Under the pieces are notes generated by a model. The model saw nothing but the letters and a program-made list of their open reading frames with translations. It had not been told where the DNA came from and made no database searches. DNA of 31,876 bases from a virus. The stretch covers positions 1 through 31,876 of IMG/VR virus record IMGVR_UViG_3300030328_001273; one strand, given 5' to 3'. Made by a program: the position numbers and the translations under genes. Of this stretch, positions 17,612 through 31,876 are shown piece by piece. How positions within the stretch are numbered: the first letter of the stretch is position 1; every line of letters begins with the position of its first letter.

Positions 17612-20533
17612 TTATTTAATTTCACGACAGCTAATAACTGTCGAACCAATTCTTCTTGTTGTGCTAGTTACCATATAATAATTACTCCAATCTCCACCAA
17701 ATGGTTGAACTGGCATTTCCCCAGCAGTATTACTAAACTGAATTACATCTCCAGTTTCAATTGTGTAAGCTTTACTAGGGTTAATAACTTCACATTTTAT
17801 AATTTTTTTAATATCTCCAAAAAGATTCATATAGTAATCTGCATATCCATCATTAGGGTCTGACCCCCCTGCCCCAACGTCAGTATTACCGGGTTTATTT
17901 ATATTCATTTCTAAAGAAATCTTATTGATATTTTCTTTTGTGCCTATATTATATTTTGACCTTACATCATTAGTGGTATCTTCAGATGTAATTGAATTAA
18001 AATACCTATCTACAGCTGGATGTTTTTCATATTCAATTTCATATTTAGTCATTAATTCAGAATAAGGAGTATGTGAAATATCTAAACTTTTAATGTCTGA
18101 TGAATTTAGAGTTACCGCAACATCACTTGATGAATACGAGTCTTTTATTGCCCAGTAAGAACCGCTACCATCTGCTCTCCATTTAAAAATAAATGCAAAT
18201 TCTTTTTGCATTTGTTGTAGTATTTTTTCTAATTCTTCAGGTTCTAAAAGCCACCATCTTAAGTTCCATGCTGAACGTAATGAATTTACATTTAGATTAT
18301 TGCTCCAATTGTATATACTACTATCTGGCTCATCATACCCTGTAAACCTTGCTAATAAATCACGATGTGCGTGTAATCCCTTAGTAATTGTGCTACTACC
18401 CATCGTAGTTGTATCAGCACATGAGTTGAGTAACCCATCGTTACCGCAGTATAAAAATTCTAAATCCTCTAAGATTTTATAACTAGTTTTAGAATGGGCA
18501 GATTGCTCACCATCTTCATAACCACTTCCAAAGTCTAGTTCTACAACATAGTGGAAAAGCATATCGTAATAAAAGGCAGTCCCAGCATAGTTTCCTGTAC
18601 TCCAAGACTGAGTAGTCTTAATCCTCATTGCTGGTAAGTAGTAATTACTTTCGTAGTAACCTTTAAAATCAAAATTAATATAGTCGGTGTATCCAGTAAA
18701 ACTACCACTTGTAGTAAATGGTATATTGGGAGAATTAGTATTTCCGCTTGTTCCTGCTAACCCATCTAGTGAGTCACCAAGTATCTCTCTTTCATTATCG
18801 CCATAATATACTCTGTTGATAATAGAAATATTTGAAGTCCCACCCCCTGTTGTGTTGATAGTAATGTGTTGGGCTGCTTTTATTAATAGGTCTAATTCTG
18901 TAATCTTTCCATTGATAGCCGGAAAATTAAAATAAGTTTCTGCAACATTTGTACCACTGCCCTCTCCAGCTACACTATGCATCATACTACCAGCAGATGA
19001 CGTTAATAATAATCTATGACTATTTGAATGACCATCGCTACCAGTTGTAGAAACAGCATGGGTCTTAAATGACCTTTTTAATGTATAACTTAATTCACCA
19101 ATATTTGCATTAGAATCAAATGTTGTAGAATTATCATAAGTAGCCGCAGTCCTGCTATTTGTATCAATTGGGACAAAGGCATCCATAGTAGATTCATAAT
19201 AGTGAGGTCGTGTATCTGATATAGAACGAGGAAGAATATATAACAAGTTAGGGTCAGCAATTCGCAATATAGGTACAGGAAATAATGCCTTACTCATATC
19301 CCTAACTACTCCTCCATATGTATTGACAGTGTAATCTCCATAAACTATAGGCACATATTGACTTGTTGTTGCTGTTTTTGTCTGTGGAATTACAATAGTA
19401 TCCCATGGTTTTTTAGACTCAAGCCCCATTGTTAATTCACCATTTTCATCCATATCAAAATTAGTCAATCTTCCGTGATATATTTGTAAACAATTACTAG
19501 AATCTGAATTGTTAGATGGCTGTGAAAAAATACGAACATCTTTGTTTATAAAATTATTGTCCCCGTAAATTACTTTTTTATATAATTCTTCACCATTTAA
19601 AGTAACATTGGCAATGGTAAGACTAACTCCAGATGTCTTAGCTGATGAATCTTTGAGGTTTATTGAATCTCGAATACTTGGTTTATTTAAAATAGCACCA
19701 TGATAAAATTTATTATCTAAGGTAGTATCTTTAAATGCTATGCCAATATCAGTTATAAATTCATTAAATGCTGTTTGCTCCCAAGTAGCCCCAGATATAG
19801 TACCATTGTTATTACTAGATGTTAAATCATCTACTGTTGAGCCACTGCCTTCATTTAGTTTCCAATATCCCTGTAAGCCTGAAGAGTCAGGGGGTACAGA
19901 ATTATTCATACCTCTTTTAATTTCAGCTTGTGACCTAGCTACATTCCATATTCTTGGATGTGCAATTTTACCTTCAAAAAAATAATCTGAATCAAACTCA
20001 GAACTACCTAAATATAATTCTCCGTTTCCACCGCCAGTGGGGGCGTCAGTTACAGTAGTTGCTGTTGAATTTAACTCTCCATTTACATATCTTTTAATTG
20101 TATTGTCTGAATCATCACGAACTACTGCAATATGAAACCATTTATTTGCTTCTACAAGATTAGTAGCAACTCTAACATTTGAATTTGAACCGCTACCATA
20201 TTGATAATGATGACCTAACTGAAAATATGTATCCCCCGAACTATTCCTTTTTAAATACATAGCAAAGTTTATATTGTTAGCTTCATCACCAGTGTCGTCA
20301 TCATTTATTCCTCGATATATAACATATTGCCTTGTATTATCGCTTGTTGCAGACGTAGGATAAACCCATGCCTCCAATGTAAAGCTAGTATATAAACCGC
20401 CTGCGTCTCCAAAACTAACCTTATCATTTGTGCCGTCAAGATTAAGACACTTATTATTATCATGCGTAAGTTGGACAACCCAATTCTCATTGATATTGCC
20501 TGTTTTATATGTGTCTGGGACTGTAAGGCTCAT
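17612..20533 (-). CDS. Tail hub/tip protein carrying an N-terminal LamG-like domain
   Basis: The protein has 973 residues with AAGAGGAGAAAT before ATG. Residues about 30-240 are LamG/concanavalin-like: LNLDGTNDKVSFGD, FTLEAWVYPT, WFHIAVVRD, RYVNGELN, GKIAHPRIWNVARSQAEI and GLQGYWKLNEGSG. The rest resembles a siphophage tail tip protein with a C-terminal segment (ELEKILQQMQKEFAF, SLDISHTPYSELMTKYEIEYE, YTIETGDVIQF) like the gp27-type hub. The LamG part probably binds a host glycan. It overlaps the tape measure stop by 4 bases. Confidence 0.7.
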   Translation of the reverse strand: MSLTVPDTYKTGNINENWVVQLTHDNNKCLNLDGTNDKVSFGDAGGLYTSFTLEAWVYPTSATSDNTRQYVIYRGINDDDTGDEANNINFAMYLKRNSSGDTYFQLGHHYQYGSGSNSNVRVATNLVEANKWFHIAVVRDDSDNTIKRYVNGELNSTATTVTDAPTGGGNGELYLGSSEFDSDYFFEGKIAHPRIWNVARSQAEIKRGMNNSVPPDSSGLQGYWKLNEGSGSTVDDLTSSNNNGTISGATWEQTAFNEFITDIGIAFKDTTLDNKFYHGAILNKPSIRDSINLKDSSAKTSGVSLTIANVTLNGEELYKKVIYGDNNFINKDVRIFSQPSNNSDSSNCLQIYHGRLTNFDMDENGELTMGLESKKPWDTIVIPQTKTATTSQYVPIVYGDYTVNTYGGVVRDMSKALFPVPILRIADPNLLYILPRSISDTRPHYYESTMDAFVPIDTNSRTAATYDNSTTFDSNANIGELSYTLKRSFKTHAVSTTGSDGHSNSHRLLLTSSAGSMMHSVAGEGSGTNVAETYFNFPAINGKITELDLLIKAAQHITINTTGGGTSNISIINRVYYGDNEREILGDSLDGLAGTSGNTNSPNIPFTTSGSFTGYTDYINFDFKGYYESNYYLPAMRIKTTQSWSTGNYAGTAFYYDMLFHYVVELDFGSGYEDGEQSAHSKTSYKILEDLEFLYCGNDGLLNSCADTTTMGSSTITKGLHAHRDLLARFTGYDEPDSSIYNWSNNLNVNSLRSAWNLRWWLLEPEELEKILQQMQKEFAFIFKWRADGSGSYWAIKDSYSSSDVAVTLNSSDIKSLDISHTPYSELMTKYEIEYEKHPAVDRYFNSITSEDTTNDVRSKYNIGTKENINKISLEMNINKPGNTDVGAGGSDPNDGYADYYMNLFGDIKKIIKCEVINPSKAYTIETGDVIQFSNTAGEMPVQPFGGDWSNYYMVTSTTRRIGSTVISCREIK

Positions 20534-22737
20534 ATTTCTCCTCTTGTAGAATGATAAGCACCAATTCCTTGACGTTTAGATGCGGTAGCCACCATAGTAG
20601 CTTGCCCACTTGCCACTGCTTTATTTATGGCAGGAATTAGCGTATCTATTACAGTATCATCTACTAATGGAGCATTAACTGAAACATTGACTGTTGTAGT
20701 CCCACCTCCTTGATTCATTTGGTTTAATGTTTCTTCACCTATTGCACTCACCGCATTTCTTGACATAACAAATTCACCTTGCTCTGCTTCAATCATTGTG
20801 CCACCTTGAGCGTGTCTATTACCGCCTACTAATCCCCCTTTTTCAAAAGTGGGTGGTTTAGTAGATGCTGCCATTGCAAGCTGTACTGCCCCCAGACCAG
20901 CTATAATACCAGATAGGGGCATACCACCCGTTGCAGGTAGCATTGCTACTGCTTTCATATAAGCCGTTGCTGTATTCATAATAATACTTGCTATACTGGA
21001 TGTTTTTTCCATTTTCCAGAGATTCATTTTATCTTCTGCAAATTTCTTAGTAACTCCTACTTCCATCTTTTTTCTAGCTTCTGCACTTGCATATCTATAT
21101 TTATCGCTAGATTTTAATGATTTTAATTCAGCACTTTCTCTTGCCTCTATTTGAGTTTTCCACTGACTGGTAATATTATTAAATGAACTTATAATTGAAC
21201 TAGCAGAATTCATATATGCTTGCACTCTTTCATCTTGCATTGCCTTTTCTAAATCAAGGTGTTCTGCATATAGAGTTAAGTATTGTTCATATGCAGCGTC
21301 ATTGCCCTCTAATGCTTCACGAAATTGTGCTTCAGTTAAGCCCTCACCATCTCCTAGAGCCGCTCTTACCTGCTTAAGTTTTTCAGTAACTATTGCGCTT
21401 CTCCTCATAGAGCTTGAAGATTGCTCAGTTGCTGATGCCAATCCAATTTCTGCTAATTTTAATTTATCAAAAGAAATAGCGGTTTGTGAGCCTGTGGAGT
21501 TAAGGTTTCCAAGTTCACCTTCTAATTTTTTTAATTCATCAGTTAATTCACCAGTGGAATCACCAAAAATATTAAATTCATCTATTAATTTCCCTACTGC
21601 TACCATACCTAAAAATATAGCTAAATTCTTTTTTGATGCTTTAGTTAATAGCTTGACGGCTTTTGTTGCTATTACTGCTCCATTAGTAAATGCTATATAA
21701 GCAACACTAACACCTACAACAGCAGTTCCATAAGCTTTAATCTTTTCAGAGTTCATTGTTTCGGCAAATGCTTTAATACCTCTAGCTGTTAAAAGAACAG
21801 CAGGCGCTAATACTTCTCCAAAATTTTCCCCAACATCCCCAACGGCATTTTTCATTTGTTGCATAGAACCTAAAAAGGTTTCTACTTCCGCTTGTGCTTG
21901 TCCACCATATAAGTTAGTTAAAGAATTTGTTGCACTTTCCAATCTATCTACTGAACCAGTTGTTCCTTCTACTGCTACCCCATATCTTCCAAGTGCATTT
22001 GTACTACTAAAAATACTCTTTGAAACTAAATCAACAGCAGAGTTTAAATCCATTCCTTTAGCTTTTGCTAAATCCATAGATGCTGTTGTTATTCTAGCAA
22101 TAGCCTTTTCATTGTCTGTATAAGCCCCAACAAGAGACATGGCATTTATGATTTCCTCATCACCAAATGTTGTTGCTTGTTGCTGAGCAGATGCAAATGC
22201 TAGTAGTGCTTGTGAATGTTTGCCTATAGCAGTTTCAAGCTTTTTTTCTGCTTTTTCTTGTTCGCCAAATAAATTTGTTAATTTTAAAACAGTAGCACCA
22301 AAAATACTTCCTGCAAAGCTAGCTAATAGCATCTTAGAACGTAACACTGCAAATGAACCACCCAGTATTCTTGTTCCATGTTCAGTATCCAGTAATCCTT
22401 TCTTTACTACTCCATTAGCCATTGCTAGTTTTTGCATTTCAGCACGAACTTTTCTTATTGCTACTTTATTACCTTGAAATGCCCTTGTTAAAACACCGGT
22501 TTCTAGCTTTAACTCTTTAAAGCTTTTAATACCATGATTTTTTATATCTGTATATAACTTTCTATTAGCCTCTTTTATTTTATTGGTGTTGGTGACTTGT
22601 TTTTTGCTTTCTTTTGCTAGACTAGCCTGAGTTTTAATTAGTTTTTTTGTAGAGGCATCTAACTTATTGATGGCGGAAATAACATCCTTATCGCCTTTTG
22701 CCCCAAACTGTATCTCAACTATATTTTTTGTTGCCAT
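20530..22737 (-). CDS. Tail tape measure protein
   Basis: The protein has 735 residues. It has a long helical N-terminus, a central membrane-like region (YGTAVVGVSVAYIAFTNGAVIATKAVKLL) and FGDEEIINAMSLVGAYTDNEKAI, as in tape measures. The C-terminus carries GGNRHAQGGTMIEAEQGEFV with M-S-R-N-A-V, a very common tape-measure ending. At 1.5 angstrom per residue the tail would be about 110 nm. It sits after the chaperone pair and before the hub, the standard order. Confidence 0.9.
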   Translation of the reverse strand: MATKNIVEIQFGAKGDKDVISAINKLDASTKKLIKTQASLAKESKKQVTNTNKIKEANRKLYTDIKNHGIKSFKELKLETGVLTRAFQGNKVAIRKVRAEMQKLAMANGVVKKGLLDTEHGTRILGGSFAVLRSKMLLASFAGSIFGATVLKLTNLFGEQEKAEKKLETAIGKHSQALLAFASAQQQATTFGDEEIINAMSLVGAYTDNEKAIARITTASMDLAKAKGMDLNSAVDLVSKSIFSSTNALGRYGVAVEGTTGSVDRLESATNSLTNLYGGQAQAEVETFLGSMQQMKNAVGDVGENFGEVLAPAVLLTARGIKAFAETMNSEKIKAYGTAVVGVSVAYIAFTNGAVIATKAVKLLTKASKKNLAIFLGMVAVGKLIDEFNIFGDSTGELTDELKKLEGELGNLNSTGSQTAISFDKLKLAEIGLASATEQSSSSMRRSAIVTEKLKQVRAALGDGEGLTEAQFREALEGNDAAYEQYLTLYAEHLDLEKAMQDERVQAYMNSASSIISSFNNITSQWKTQIEARESAELKSLKSSDKYRYASAEARKKMEVGVTKKFAEDKMNLWKMEKTSSIASIIMNTATAYMKAVAMLPATGGMPLSGIIAGLGAVQLAMAASTKPPTFEKGGLVGGNRHAQGGTMIEAEQGEFVMSRNAVSAIGEETLNQMNQGGGTTTVNVSVNAPLVDDTVIDTLIPAINKAVASGQATMVATASKRQGIGAYHSTRGEI

Positions 22738-23110
22738 CTTTTATTACCTTTGCTTTCTGTCTTTCTAATAAATAATTTATTAAAAAACTTTTTTCAACCC
22801 ATTTTTTGGGTTGCTCTCCATAAGAACCTTTATATGGAGATATGTTAAATTGTTTAGAGTACATAAATCTTGATATATCTTTTTGAGCTTCTTCACTTAA
22901 TATAATGTTTGGGCAAGAAAAAAAGGGCAGTTGAGCCATCACCGATTCAGCGATATGCAAATTACTGCCCTTTTCTATTTGATTTTTAGTTTCATCTATT
23001 AAAAGATGAATTACTTTCCAAACATCATCGTTAGATAAAAAGTTTCTTGTCTCGTATTTCCCATTTATTGCTATAGGTATTTGAGCCTTGTAAGGGTACT
23101 TATGATACAT
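22715..23110 (-). CDS. Tail assembly chaperone second part (GT-type frameshift product)
   Basis: The frame has 131 residues from an ATG at 23110, but it is open upstream without a stop as far as the run of G at 23173-23169, in the -1 frame of the preceding gene. The fusion adds about 20 residues including K-K-C-E-G-C. An own start is possible (GAGGGG 3 bases from ATG, too close). The product is basic. It overlaps the tape measure start by 23 bases. In lambda, G and GT proteins bind the tape measure before tail assembly. Confidence 0.6.
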   Translation of the reverse strand: MYHKYPYKAQIPIAINGKYETRNFLSNDDVWKVIHLLIDETKNQIEKGSNLHIAESVMAQLPFFSCPNIILSEEAQKDISRFMYSKQFNISPYKGSYGEQPKKWVEKSFLINYLLERQKAKVIKDGNKKYS

Positions 23111-23163
23111 ACACCCCTCACACTTTTTACTTAATAATAAGTTTGCCTCAAGCGTAAGGGAGT

Positions 23164-23175
23164 CTATTCCCCCAA
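23164..23175 (-). other. Candidate programmed -1 ribosomal frameshift site
   Basis: The end of the first chaperone reads TTG GGG GAA TAG on the minus strand. Five G in a row let the GGG-decoding tRNA re-pair after a -1 step, and the -1 frame then stays open into the 22715 gene. The second codon does not re-pair perfectly, so this is weaker than lambda's GGGAAAG. Confidence 0.5.
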
Positions 23176-23418
23176 GCGTTGGTGTTCCTGTACTGCTAAT
23201 GATAATTCATTTTTTTCATCATCCGTTAAGGACTTAAGAAATTTATCATCAGAACCTTCAACACCTTTTCTAATCCATGCAGTTCTTGCTTTAGCTAAAT
23301 TGGCTATGCCTACTATTTCATTTCCCTCATATCTCATTTGAGGAATATCATTGCAATAATCCATATCATCAATAGACATCTCTTTTAATTTGACTTCTTT
23401 TCCTGTAGATAACTTCAT
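23164..23418 (-). CDS. Tail assembly chaperone first part (G-type)
   Basis: The protein has 84 residues, begins MKLSTGKEVKLKEMSIDD and is charged and helical, with SLTDDEKNELSLAVQEHQRLGE at the end. Small size, position between tail tube and tape measure, and the frameshift arrangement support a lambda G-like tail chaperone. There is no direct family motif visible. It starts 3 bases after the tail-tube stop. Confidence 0.6.
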   Translation of the reverse strand: MKLSTGKEVKLKEMSIDDMDYCNDIPQMRYEGNEIVGIANLAKARTAWIRKGVEGSDDKFLKSLTDDEKNELSLAVQEHQRLGE

Positions 23419-23420
23419 TA

Positions 23421-24440
23421 TTATGCTAAGTCAATGTTAAAAAGATTAGCGCCAGTTTCGTCATTTACGCCTTTCATAGATACGTCTAACATCATCATAT
23501 CCCCTTCATTGAATGCCACATCTGTAAATACTGCATCAGGTAAATAAATTGATGTATCAGTTGCTGTACTTTGCGTTAATGCAAGCATATTACCTTCCGT
23601 AGCCGCACTTTGAGTATTGAAGTCATCATACAGCCCTCTAGTAACTGAATCATATTTTACTGTAGCTTCAGCAGTAGCGGAAAACTCCTCACCTCTTCCA
23701 AAGCATTTATAGCCTCTGGTTTGAAATCCAGTGTATATTGCTGGATGCTCTAAAGTAAAATTAAATGAATTAAGAATTGCATCAGTTGCCCCAACCTTAA
23801 CTGTAGTAAGATTGGACATCGCTAATGATGATGTTCCAAATACAGTTCCAGCAGGGGTTTGTGTATTATTTGTAATCGGTTGTAAACCAGTAGATATAGT
23901 TGCACTAAATTTATACTGACCACCATCTGTCCCAGCATCTGCTGATATAGAAAAGCTAGTTACTAAGCAACCTCTTAGTATTGTATTATATCCATCAGAA
24001 GTATCTGGAGGTGCTAAAACAAGAGTAAATGTTTTATTTGAACCAGATTCGCCATATTTACCACTTGTACCAGTGTGTGTCGAACTTGCAACAACTACAT
24101 CTGCATAGCTCGTATCTAAGTTTTGACCAGCGACACTTTGCATTAACATTAATGTACCAACATCTTTGTGATATACCCCTGAAAGTGTTACTTCTGTAGC
24201 CTTCATAGCATTATCTTGAAAGAAATCATTTTTACTTAAAGTCCTCCCACTTCTTGTTCGAACATTTAATACTTGGTTTGGTGAAATACTTGGGAACGCT
24301 ACAGAGTCTACGTCTAGTTGATATAAAGAACCTGTAATTGCAGGAGCATTGGGGCTTCCGCTATTATAAGCATTACCTAATGTAGTCTCTTCAATTATCC
24401 ATGCTTTAAAATCTTTTGGTGAAAATACTGCGTCAGCCAT
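23421..24440 (-). CDS. Major tail (tube) protein
   Basis: The protein has 339 residues and AAAGGAGATGAATA before ATG. It is beta-rich, with many S, T and G residues (TEVTLSGVYHKDVGTL, SFSISADAGTDGGQYKFSATI, FNFTLEHPAIYTGFQTRG), as in siphovirus tube proteins. Its position (terminator, small gene, tube, chaperones, tape measure) fits exactly. It would stack as hexameric rings around the tape measure. A capsid protein is less likely because tape measure and chaperones follow directly. Confidence 0.7.
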   Translation of the reverse strand: MADAVFSPKDFKAWIIEETTLGNAYNSGSPNAPAITGSLYQLDVDSVAFPSISPNQVLNVRTRSGRTLSKNDFFQDNAMKATEVTLSGVYHKDVGTLMLMQSVAGQNLDTSYADVVVASSTHTGTSGKYGESGSNKTFTLVLAPPDTSDGYNTILRGCLVTSFSISADAGTDGGQYKFSATISTGLQPITNNTQTPAGTVFGTSSLAMSNLTTVKVGATDAILNSFNFTLEHPAIYTGFQTRGYKCFGRGEEFSATAEATVKYDSVTRGLYDDFNTQSAATEGNMLALTQSTATDTSIYLPDAVFTDVAFNEGDMMMLDVSMKGVNDETGANLFNIDLA

Positions 24441-28536: not shown

Positions 28537-31500
28537 TTATTTATCCTTTAGTTGTTTTTGTAAATCTTCTACTTTTGCAGATAATTCTTGTACAGCTTTT
28601 ACAAGTATTGGGACAAGGTTTCCATCAGCAACAGTCTGAGTTCCATCATCTTTTAATTTCCACATTTTAAACCCATCAGCAAGTTCTTTGTGATTATCTA
28701 TTGCTTGTTTTACTTCTTGAGCAATAAATCCATGTAGAGTTTCACCATATTCTTTGCCTAATACTGGATTATCAGAATCTTCATATTGTGGTAAACTTTT
28801 ATCAACATCTTTTGCTTTTTTCCAATTATATGTAACTGGTCGTAAATCATTAATAAATCCAAGACCAGCAGATGATGTTTCTATATTTTCTTTTAATCTT
28901 TCGTCAGATGACGCCGCCGCCCAAGAGGTATCAGAACCATCTAAACCAAGTGAGGCAGTATTAGAACCAATTCCTAATGTAGCCGTGTTATCGGCAGTAC
29001 AATTAACAGCCTGACCTATTGCTATTTGACCAACAGCTCCACCAGCGCTTACATTTGCTTGTGAACCTAAACAAGTATTACTATGTCCATTGGTAATTGA
29101 ATCTCCAGACCCATATCCTACAGCTGTATTTTCATGGGTTGTATCGTTATTACCAGCTCCTAAAGAATGCATACCAATACCTGTGTTTTTATCAGAACCA
29201 GCAACGAGAACGTCACCTGCTTGATAACCCATTAAAGTATTATGTTGCCCCGTGGTAGAAGTTTTTAATGCTTCAAATCCAATAGCAGTGTTACCAGCTC
29301 CATTCGTAATATTTGCACCAGCTTCTTTTCCAATAGCAACAGTTCCATCTGTGGTAGTTTGACCAGCCGATATATCTTTACCAGCGTCTTTACCAATTAA
29401 AATATTGCTTCCAGAAGTCGTAAGAGTTGCTCCAGCACTATATCCAATAATTACATTTTGATTAGCTGTTGTTTGAGCTACACCAGCATTTGAACCTGCC
29501 ATAACATTATTATCACCATCCGTAAGGTTATACCCAGCTCTGTATCCGATAGCTGTGTTATCAGCCGAATCATTGTCAGCTGCCGTACCAGAACTTCTCA
29601 TAGATTCACAACCTATTGATACATTTCTACCTCCACCATTCAATAAATATCCTGCTTGATAACCTATGTAGGTATTATCATGTTGAGTAGTAACTGAATA
29701 ACCTGCTGAATAACCGACGTAAACCGAACCCCTTGCAGTTGTAGCTGCTTGACCAGCAACCCCTCCAATAAATACGTTTGGCATACCACTAGCGGTGTCT
29801 GTCATACTTTGACCACAACTGTGACCTATTAGAACTGCAAATTGCGAATTAGTTCCATTAATAGCAGTCCCAGCAGAAGTTCCTATTGCAATTGTACCTT
29901 GCTGAGCTACTGAAGCTGTGCTATTTAAAGTATCTGTTCCTATCGCTACACATTCTTTCATAGCTGCACCACCACCAGTACCAGCTTGAAATCCTATTAA
30001 AACATTTTTATCAGCAGTGTCAGAATCAATGCTAGAACCAGCGTAATACCCTATTGCAACATTTCCATTTTCATCATTATCTGCTGCTGCTAAAGCATTT
30101 TTTCCTATCGCAACATTATGGGAATTAGCAGTAAAATTTTCTCCCGCAGAGTCACCGATAATAACATTATTTGCACCAGTCGTAATATCCATGCCTGATT
30201 TACTTCCCACAGCTGTATTATAAGTACCTGTTGTTACTGCATATAATGATTTACTTCCTATTCCCGTATTATGGTAATGAGTATTTCCAGAGGCTCCCCT
30301 TCCTGCTTGGTAACCAACAAAGGTGCTATCACCATTTGTTTCATTAAACATTTCTGCTTCATATCCAATGGCAACTGACCGAGCTCCAGTTGTTTTACTG
30401 GTCATCGCTTTATATCCGAGAGCAGTATTTTCTGTACCACTTGTGAGAGTTGCTAGGGCATAACCACCAACAGCTACACCACCAGTAATATCGTTACTAC
30501 CAGTTGAATCAAGAGAATATGCTCCTATTGCAACACATAAATCAAGTTCTCCAGTTCCACCTCTTAAAGAATTATATCCTATCCCAACATTATTATCAGC
30601 ACCATCATGGTCAACACTGCCCATAGCTAATTCGCCTATGGCAATATTATATGATTCTGTTCCATCAGCGACACCAAGAGCGTCATATCCTAGTACAGTA
30701 TTAAAACCTCCCGTGGTAAGTTCGTCCGCTGCTTGATAACCGACTAGAGTGTTGTGTTCACCATCGGTAATTGCATAACCCGATTTATAACCTACTGCAA
30801 CTGTTCCATTTGCATCAGCAGAATTAATAGTAGAACCAGCTTGATGACCAACTAATACTGAATTAGCCGTTGTAGTCATAGCATCACCAGCCTGAGCACC
30901 TATACAAATATTTTTATTTCCACTTGTAATCCCATAACCAGCTTCTTCACCGATTCCAATATTCTGAGCAGATGATGTAATTGATGCTAAAGCAAAATGT
31001 CCAACTGCTACTTGACCATTTGCATCATTTAACACACCTTGCATTGTGTTATTACCTATGCATACATTCTTATCACTATCTGCATCTGCCCACGCTCCAC
31101 CACCAGAAGTATATCCTATAAATATATTGTTATCTGAGTCTTTACTGTTAGAACCCGCATCGGTATCGTGCATCGCTTCATACCCGATTGCGATGTTTCT
31201 ATCACCAGTAGAATTTCCAAATAAAGCATCAAGTCCAATAGCAATATTATGAGTACCTGTTGTTTGTCCATAACCAGCCCTATGTCCGATTGCCACCATT
31301 CCATTAGCACCAGTTGTTGTTATAGTAGCTCCAGCTTGGTCGCCTATAAGAGTAAGATAATTAGCTGTTGTAATATTTTTACCAGTTTCTCCTCCAATGA
31401 CTGTATTATAAGAACCAGAAGTCATATCAATACCAGCGTTATAACCGACTAATGTATTGACATCTCCACCATCCAAAAGTAAACCTGCTGAATCACCAAC

Positions 31501-31876
31501 AATAACATTGTAATTAGTACCGCTTGTTATTGCATTTCCAGCACTTTTTCCAAAAACTGTATTACCAGTACCAGCATCTCTATTAGATAGAGATACTCTA
31601 CTATTTGCATCAATAATCATCAGACTATCAGTTCCATCTGTTACATCAAGAAATCCAGATGGGCTATCTGTTCCAATACCTAAGCTACCTTCTCCTGTTC
31701 CGTTGGTTAATAGGGTCATCTTGTGAGCACCATCTTTATCGCCAAATTTTGCTTTAGTAATTCCGCCACTTTCTATACAAGCAATAGTTAATCCATGAAC
31801 CGAGTCAGCTCCATGCGAAATTCTAATAGCATTAATAGGATTTCGACCAGTACCAAATATATTTAATCCCCATCCA
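28537..31876 (-). CDS. Very long tail fibre: YadA-like head repeats plus S74 chaperone domain (cut by window edge)
   Basis: The frame is open to the window edge, 52 codons above the first internal ATG at 31719, so at least 1112 residues are seen. About forty imperfect repeats of 22-24 residues (N-x-x-I-G-x-x-A-G with T-T-G) fill the protein, like beta-roll heads of trimeric adhesins. The last 123 residues form a Peptidase_S74 self-cleaving chaperone, starting at SDERLKEN near 28908 and with GFIAQEV and LVPILVKAVQEL. It would trimerise and then release the chaperone. Likely receptor binding. Confidence 0.88.
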   Translation of the reverse strand, partial: GWGLNIFGTGRNPINAIRISHGADSVHGLTIACIESGGITKAKFGDKDGAHKMTLLTNGTGEGSLGIGTDSPSGFLDVTDGTDSLMIIDANSRVSLSNRDAGTGNTVFGKSAGNAITSGTNYNVIVGDSAGLLLDGGDVNTLVGYNAGIDMTSGSYNTVIGGETGKNITTANYLTLIGDQAGATITTTGANGMVAIGHRAGYGQTTGTHNIAIGLDALFGNSTGDRNIAIGYEAMHDTDAGSNSKDSDNNIFIGYTSGGGAWADADSDKNVCIGNNTMQGVLNDANGQVAVGHFALASITSSAQNIGIGEEAGYGITSGNKNICIGAQAGDAMTTTANSVLVGHQAGSTINSADANGTVAVGYKSGYAITDGEHNTLVGYQAADELTTGGFNTVLGYDALGVADGTESYNIAIGELAMGSVDHDGADNNVGIGYNSLRGGTGELDLCVAIGAYSLDSTGSNDITGGVAVGGYALATLTSGTENTALGYKAMTSKTTGARSVAIGYEAEMFNETNGDSTFVGYQAGRGASGNTHYHNTGIGSKSLYAVTTGTYNTAVGSKSGMDITTGANNVIIGDSAGENFTANSHNVAIGKNALAAADNDENGNVAIGYYAGSSIDSDTADKNVLIGFQAGTGGGAAMKECVAIGTDTLNSTASVAQQGTIAIGTSAGTAINGTNSQFAVLIGHSCGQSMTDTASGMPNVFIGGVAGQAATTARGSVYVGYSAGYSVTTQHDNTYIGYQAGYLLNGGGRNVSIGCESMRSSGTAADNDSADNTAIGYRAGYNLTDGDNNVMAGSNAGVAQTTANQNVIIGYSAGATLTTSGSNILIGKDAGKDISAGQTTTDGTVAIGKEAGANITNGAGNTAIGFEALKTSTTGQHNTLMGYQAGDVLVAGSDKNTGIGMHSLGAGNNDTTHENTAVGYGSGDSITNGHSNTCLGSQANVSAGGAVGQIAIGQAVNCTADNTATLGIGSNTASLGLDGSDTSWAAASSDERLKENIETSSAGLGFINDLRPVTYNWKKAKDVDKSLPQYEDSDNPVLGKEYGETLHGFIAQEVKQAIDNHKELADGFKMWKLKDDGTQTVADGNLVPILVKAVQELSAKVEDLQKQLKDK

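Follow-up and report, generated by a model that had tools for sequence, protein, structure and literature searches.

Probable programmed -1 frameshifting between the paired tail assembly chaperone genes of an uncharacterised family of marine tailed phages

Introduction

In phage lambda, as in N15 and HK97, the tail genes stand in the order tube, G, T and tape measure, and a -1 shift near the end of G leads into T (the lambda G/GT model is followed here as described in an excerpt of PMC5009743). The T frame of lambda and N15 runs into the start of the tape measure gene, whereas HK97 has a small gene between the two. The slippery heptamer of these phages is GGGAAAG or GGAAAAG, and the frameshift sites of other phages include GGGAAAC and AAAAAAG (PMC3483164, excerpt). 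A different site, GGGGGAA, accounts for the 'fivetwo' motif of PRFect in all of about a thousand SEA-PHAGES cases, mostly in the same gene pair, and re-pairing of the second tRNA through a G:U pair has been proposed for these sites (PMC10885494, excerpt). GGGGGAA was also proposed as the frameshift site of gp14/gp14A in the Corynebacterium phage phi16, together with a 3' RNA structure (PMC5506516, excerpt). The GGGGGAA strings in PMC3091744 (excerpt) are ribosome-binding sites and were discarded as irrelevant to frameshifting. Here, a gene pair of this kind was analysed in an IMG/VR virus record (IMGVR_UViG_3300030328_001273; 31,876 bp, 34% GC; the whole record is called the window), where two overlapping open reading frames (ORFs) lie between a tube gene assigned by position and a tape measure gene assigned by PHROG families. 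An earlier note on this DNA had proposed that a G/GT-like frameshift joins the two as tail chaperone genes. The relatives collected here support this proposal, and we hold with high confidence that the pair uses programmed -1 ribosomal frameshifting.

The frameshift is of a known kind, the lambda-type G/GT. The locus shares with lambda, N15 and HK97 the gene order and the -1 shift near the end of G, and with lambda and N15 the T frame that runs into the tape measure start; it differs from them in its heptamer, which is GGGGGAR (R, A or G). As far as we found, the GGGGGAG variant of the heptamer, the protein family and a covarying hairpin inside T are new. A known mechanism is in this way extended to marine phages that form a large uncultured family and have chaperones missed by the Pfam and PHROG libraries, and a firm annotation is provided for more than a hundred distinct sequences.

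Results and discussion

Conservation of the slippery heptamer

The G-like gene (positions 23164-23418 of the window; like all features below, on the minus strand) encodes an 84-aa zero-frame product. Its end was correctly given in the earlier note as TTG GGG GAA TAG, and the full end reads CAA CGC TTG GGG GAA TAG. The slippery heptamer G_GGG_GAA lies at 23167-23173, with the zero-frame stop TAG (23164-23166) directly 3' of it. From the heptamer, a T-like extension of 152 codons plus TGA follows in the -1 frame (22715-23173), and its 152-residue translation begins with GGIDSLTLEANLLLSKKCEGCMYHKYPYKAQIP. This extension is probably reached via the frameshift only. On the minus strand of the window GGGGGAR occurs once, exactly at the G/T junction, and on the plus strand it occurs three times.

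Scans with G and with T returned 74 and 12 viral contigs, respectively, and the window and 74 loci made up a first set of 75 sequences. From scans with a T alignment, 80 of 230 and 80 of 151 relatives were taken, and the family is larger than the set examined. The wider set contains 288 sequences including the window, of which 285 match T and 283 span the slip site. Because many loci repeat one contig, the 117 distinct junctions are the figure to be used; the corresponding counts are 138 complete T regions (145-161 codons) and 83 clusters at 90% identity. GGGGGAR was found in the same register in 74 of the 75 first-set sequences, the other one (L077) ending before the site, and in the T frame in all 283 site-spanning sequences, so that the G run whose conservation the earlier note had wished to see checked is kept throughout. 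Among the distinct junctions, 77 (the window included) have GGGGGAA and 40 have GGGGGAG; the latter form, like the AT-rich marine background, sets the family apart from the 'fivetwo' sites of SEA-PHAGES (PMC10885494, excerpt).

The surroundings of the heptamer vary. The preceding dinucleotide is TT in 86 junctions, CT in 9, AT in 9, GT in 8, AC in 3 and AA in 2, and the zero-frame stop follows GAR after 0, 1, 5 or 7 codons in 82, 1, 21 and 13 junctions, respectively; one relative (L258) has GGGGGAA followed by GAC TAA, exactly as phi16 has. Therefore, the heptamer itself is kept, rather than the bases before it or an adjacent stop. Its Gly codon is always GGG; at the other Gly positions of G and T, this codon is used in 14% of cases (134 of 944 in 79 cluster representatives). 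In 44 G representatives, the synonymous identity of the final codons CAA, CGC, TTG and GGG was 0.95, 0.90, 0.95 and 1.00, against a mean of 0.57 upstream in G, while GAR was free (0.50). Since two upstream columns of G also reach 1.0, CAA-CGC-TTG-GGG is outstanding as a block and not column by column. The slippery site is conserved in the relatives and selected beyond coding, which supports GGGGGAR, GAG as second codon included, as a site kept through deep divergence.

The earlier note was right to place GGGGGAA outside the classic heptamers, as it does not fit X_XXY_YYZ and the second codon in the -1 frame is GGA instead of YYY. The site is nevertheless not unusual for this gene pair, given the 'fivetwo' motif and phi16. 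Nor does it require slippage in the P site only, which the earlier note had considered possible: the second tRNA can re-pair with GGA through G:U (PMC10885494, excerpt), so tandem slippage is at least as plausible as P-site slippage. The free seventh base is as predicted by tandem re-pairing. In the mechanism proposed here, most ribosomes would read G and halt at TAG, while a fraction with tRNA-Gly on GGG and tRNA-Glu on GAR would slip back by one base, from G_GGG_GAR to GGG_GGA, with tRNA-Glu re-pairing by G:U at the middle position. The slipped ribosomes would then read the T frame and produce a G-T fusion, for which the predicted tryptic junction peptide is LGEIDSLTLEANLLLSK after a tandem slip or LGGIDSLTLEANLLLSK after a P-site slip. 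By analogy with lambda, G and GT would chaperone the tape measure protein and recruit tube subunits.

Coding in the -1 frame

The earlier note had described the -1 frame as open for about 20 codons, and the first ATG, GTG or TTG is indeed codon 21 (GGG counted as 0), at 23110. The frame continues for 152 codons from the G run to the TGA at 22717-22715, and upstream of the ATG at 23110 it is open through the G run and back to 23206. No stop interrupts it between the two genes in any of 74 first-set sequences, so that the first of two findings by which the earlier note would have seen its proposal refuted was not made. Within the 14 codons between TAG and the Cys pair of T, the -1 frame of 41 representatives has 0 stops among 574 codons, whereas the other two frames have 72 and 38. 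The ratio of nonsynonymous to synonymous changes (pN/pS) downstream of TAG in the same representatives was 0.47 in the -1 frame, against 0.82 and 1.58.

Stem-loop downstream of the heptamer

A stem-loop with the core CCCUUAC / GUGAGGG occupies 23113-23160, a structure that had not been seen when the junction itself was first described, and the same is true of the hairpin within T treated below. In the window, the 62 nt 3' of the heptamer fold with -20.7 kcal/mol (z -4.4). The stem-loop was more stable than synonymous codon shuffles in 45 of 51 loci (at most 10 of 200 shuffles reaching it). Across the 83 clusters its mean z against synonymous shuffles was -2.87, and in 68 of them no more than 15 of 300 shuffles reached it. 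Ten windows along T served as controls: nine lay between -0.76 and +0.38, and the tenth, at -2.60, is the second hairpin. The stem positions were paired in 91.7% of the aligned cells, compared with at most 73.8% when the stem was slid, and the covariation score was 0.150 versus 0.130 in shuffles (0 of 500). In the alignment, the stem core starts 6 nt 3' of the heptamer; in single-sequence folds the first pair lies 2-6 nt after the heptamer, where 2 is the floor set by the folded stretch. In most clusters the stem-loop is selected beyond protein coding, and it probably promotes the frameshift as a stimulator.

Other RNA elements were tried as well. A conserved Shine-Dalgarno stimulator was rejected, though 22 of 35 window genes checked have a Shine-Dalgarno-like site. 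A pairing of the heptamer with a downstream UACCCC, proposed by RNAalifold, was rejected because the slip site would be hidden and because these letters are codons for a conserved Y-P-Y. A search of 22600-23500 against Rfam gave three sub-threshold matches.

Protein models and family searches

The G-like product is predicted to be a tail assembly chaperone, based on its ORF and on its AlphaFold2 model. The models of both proteins are confident, with mean predicted local distance difference test (pLDDT) values of 91.3 for G and 86.5 for T. When the G model was compared with 24 chains by VIA-align, the best match was the HK97 tail assembly chaperone 2ob9 (Z 5.2, root mean square deviation 3.8, 76 aligned residues), and the next row had Z 2.3. 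In BFVD the three best matches to G are unnamed; the weaker ones below them include proteins named as tail assembly chaperones (from E 0.05 upwards) as well as FS-gp41 of Mu (E 0.31). A Foldseek search of the PDB with the G and T models gave nothing at E of 0.001 or below. Among profile families, phrog_8271, whose function is unnamed in the annotation, was matched by 2 of 33 G members, and RE_HpaII by 2 of 33 T members (best E 0.0073), which was taken as chance.

No fold was assigned to T, because its best VIA-align match (Z 3.4) and its one weak profile match (sulfhydryl oxidase, E 0.027) are too weak. Two Cys and a His in the pattern CxxCxxH, or in a form two residues longer, are present in 134 of the 138 distinct T proteins, and this motif may bind a metal, in what would be a tail chaperone. 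T also has a Cys after Pro-Phe-Phe.

The relatives define an uncharacterised family of marine tailed phages. A tblastn search with G, T and the tube protein in 50,697 phage records gave no match at E 0.01, and with the tape measure protein gave weak matches to three records, two of Cellulophaga phage phi46:1 and one of EBPR siphovirus 6. Ten pattern matches of the T alignment in contigs of GTDB genomes included no relative.

Weighing the frameshift against other explanations

Several results weigh against reading the locus as a frameshifting chaperone pair. The match of G to 2ob9, at Z 5.2, is below the level where such matches are safe, and both G and T lack an informative Pfam or PHROG family. 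By hhalign no homology was found to lambda G, lambda T or phi16 gp14; in this absence of detectable sequence homology the pair differs from that of lambda. Tail chaperone proteins diverge fast. As for the RNA, six of the 51 loci (L036, L041, L046, L060, L066 and L076) have no significant stem, and stem covariation is weak, since two-sided changes are found in two pairs only, a level reached by 103 of 500 shuffles. A Shine-Dalgarno stimulator is not conserved: of 44 representatives, 20 have CAG and 21 have CAA as the Gln codon that would form AGGA. Lastly, an ATG stands after the second Cys in 19 of the 83 clusters (the window's included) and a start codon before the first Cys in 14, and thus a T-only product is possible in some lineages.

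This last point leads to the explanation that T is a separate gene with its own start and needs no frameshift, which we regard as very improbable. In the window, the second ORF as listed runs from the ATG at 23110 (22715-23110, 131 aa). The earlier note had found the spacing of a possible own start too short, and here we differ slightly: a GAGG lies 5 nt upstream, so the spacing taken by itself is not enough to dismiss an internal start. Of 74 first-set sequences, 45 have ATG as the first start codon there, and 15 of the 138 distinct T regions have a start codon upstream of the first Cys. On the other hand, the ATG is directly behind the CxxC, so that a product begun there would lack it, and beyond the 19 clusters the position holds codons for Q, R, N, K and others. 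The GAGGGG near it doubles as the 3' arm of the stem-loop, and the frame upstream of it is under coding constraint and free of stops in the 41 representatives. The early starts stand at scattered codons. Reading on from the heptamer, the first Cys is reached without any ATG, GTG or TTG in 123 of the 138 distinct T regions, and likewise in 69 of the 83 clusters. No separate T start is conserved among the relatives examined, so that the second refuting finding named in the earlier note was not made either, and this argues against an internal start.

Stop-codon readthrough was rejected as well, for past the TAG the zero frame hits TAA after ten sense codons. A frame break caused by faulty sequencing or assembly, or by decay of the gene, can practically be dismissed: G runs are error-prone in some technologies, but the frame relation is identical in 117 distinct junctions from many metagenome records, and both ORFs are constrained.

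Terminator-like hairpin within the T frame

A second hairpin, AAAGGGCAGT ... ACTGCCCTTT, lies in the T frame at 22922-22973, and at its 3' end follows a run of seven U (22918-22924) within the codons for P-F-F. It starts 200 nt after the heptamer, the U run begins at +249, and the tape measure start is about 180 nt further downstream. With -24.4 kcal/mol it ranks first among the 111 hairpin-plus-U-run sites that were scored on the two strands of the window, although a standard terminator scan with a loop limit of 8 did not list it. In 54 aligned sequences, 93.4% of the hairpin cells pair, compared with at most 71.2% when slid, five of nine pairs show two-sided changes, and the two-sided compensatory cells number 43 against 13.4 in shuffles (reached by 0 of 500); the inner helix covaries too. 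A codon-based alignment of the 83 clusters gave 81 such cells, where 1000 shuffles averaged 34.0 and did not exceed 47. At least seven of the nine pairs form in 63 clusters, and five or fewer in 14. Compared with synonymous shuffles, the hairpin was reached by at most 2 of 200 in 96 of 138 T regions and by at most 10 of 200 in 114. The T hairpin is conserved as a structure.

A stable stem directly followed by a U run has the form of an intrinsic terminator, if termination does occur there. A hairpin of at most -10 kcal/mol with U5 or longer is present in 64 of 83 clusters, and a U run of five or more in 120 of 138 distinct T regions (U6-U8 in 110). The U run was dropped as separate evidence, because synonymous shuffles give similar runs, owing to the Pro-Phe-Phe codons and codon usage. 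Two observations speak against a terminator: 12 of the 83 clusters lack a comparable hairpin and still keep the heptamer and the T frame, and several more clusters have the hairpin with a U run broken by the Phe codon TTC. In 11 of the 12 clusters without the hairpin, the stretch from tube to tape showed no other terminator-like site of at most -12 kcal/mol. The remaining sequence, L204, has another hairpin at +381 from the heptamer (-22.7 kcal/mol, U6), perhaps a replacement.

Tentatively, and with more doubt than confidence, we suggest that the frameshift gates tape measure transcription through this hairpin, since it is located downstream of the G stop and upstream of the tape start, where the frame is crossed by shifted ribosomes only, and since a translating ribosome keeps terminator hairpins from forming (PMC5021804, excerpt). 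If translation ends with G, no ribosome would cover the 190 nt leading to the hairpin; the hairpin would form and the polymerase would leave before the tape measure gene. A shifted ribosome would follow the polymerase and hold the hairpin open, and would also supply the tape start, inside T, with ribosomes. In this way a single slippage rate would fix the amounts of GT chaperone and tape measure together, relative to the abundant tube protein. If the hairpin is a terminator, it would provide a simple circuit tying the dose of tape measure protein to the frameshift rate, and the balance of tube, chaperone and tape amounts would be directly testable. We know of no frameshift-controlled attenuator in any phage, and among the literature titles listed none describes one.

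The putative terminators of HK97 and the terminator-like hairpin of phi16 before the tape gene support attenuation at this operon step as an existing theme. In HK97, putative terminators are annotated around the chaperone genes, one of them just before the tape gene; those are intergenic, whereas the hairpin described here is intragenic, inside the -1 frame. Phi16 likewise has its hairpin between the chaperones and the tape gene; it occupies the end of gp15 and the gap preceding the tape gene, rather than a place deep in the frameshift frame. In lambda T, a hairpin followed by U5 (L289:1780-1812) is located at +170 to +198 after the slip site, with z -3.8 and more stable than each of 1000 synonymous shuffles. 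It is also present in ev017, PhiR12_2_star and 204576, whose stems show no two-sided changes. In five further lambdoid T genes another fold occurs, which runs out in U4-U7 at +134 to +137. As the lambda hairpin is absent from the N15-type relatives (N15, HK225 and mEp237), a general rule from lambda was rejected. For phi80, an inverted repeat called IR2 is annotated in the T-like gene (L301:641-681), immediately upstream of the tape start.

Other roles of the T hairpin were considered. In T7 gene 10, a frameshift is followed about 200 nt later by the terminator Tphi, which influences frameshifting (PMC5009743, excerpt), and the T hairpin could be a long-range stimulator of this type, as it is at a T7-like distance (200-249 nt) and has CCC in its 3' arm. 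We consider this unlikely, for the stem is kept as a local hairpin with compensatory changes and a U run directly after it, and the heptamer and T frame persist in the 12 clusters without it. The T7 system also differs in that gene 10 is a capsid gene and Tphi comes after the fusion ORF, not inside it. Equally improbable is an element of RNA processing or decay, or a structure acting at the DNA level. Covariation is blind to RNA versus DNA structure and to mechanism, yet the long run is on the coding side, with a U run of at least five in 120 of 138 T regions but an A run of this length on the opposite side in 32, an asymmetry that would fit a directional terminator but is in large part accounted for by codon usage.

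Transcriptional slippage on the U run, driven by the hairpin and giving frame-altered T proteins, is clearly less probable still. According to the title of a 2015 paper by Penno, stem-loop-mediated transcriptional slippage is said to have terminator-like features, and runs of U6-U8 are common here, as given above. The other two frames after P-F-F, however, stay open for a median of 3 and 6 codons, and for 38 and 58 at most, and therefore no conserved product would result from such slippage.

Neighbouring genes

The gene upstream of G (23421-24440, 339 aa) is the probable tail tube gene by position only, as Pfam and PHROG searches of this ORF gave no match. The tail tape measure gene (20530-22737) was recognised by PHROG tape-measure families (E 2.9e-9 and 5.7e-7). 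Its ATG is inside the 3' end of T, with an overlap of 23 nt in the window, and when the most upstream ATG is taken, the tape start overlaps the end of T in 125 of the 135 sequences with a start found. The most stable 60-nt fold sampled on the minus strand (-29.1 kcal/mol) is inside the tape gene, at 20887-20946. Behind this gene, a 973-aa protein (17615-20533) contains a concanavalin A-like lectin domain (Laminin_G_3, E 1.7e-25), and at 28540-31719 lies the gene for a tail spike-like protein of 1060 aa whose C-terminal domain is Peptidase_S74, an intramolecular chaperone.

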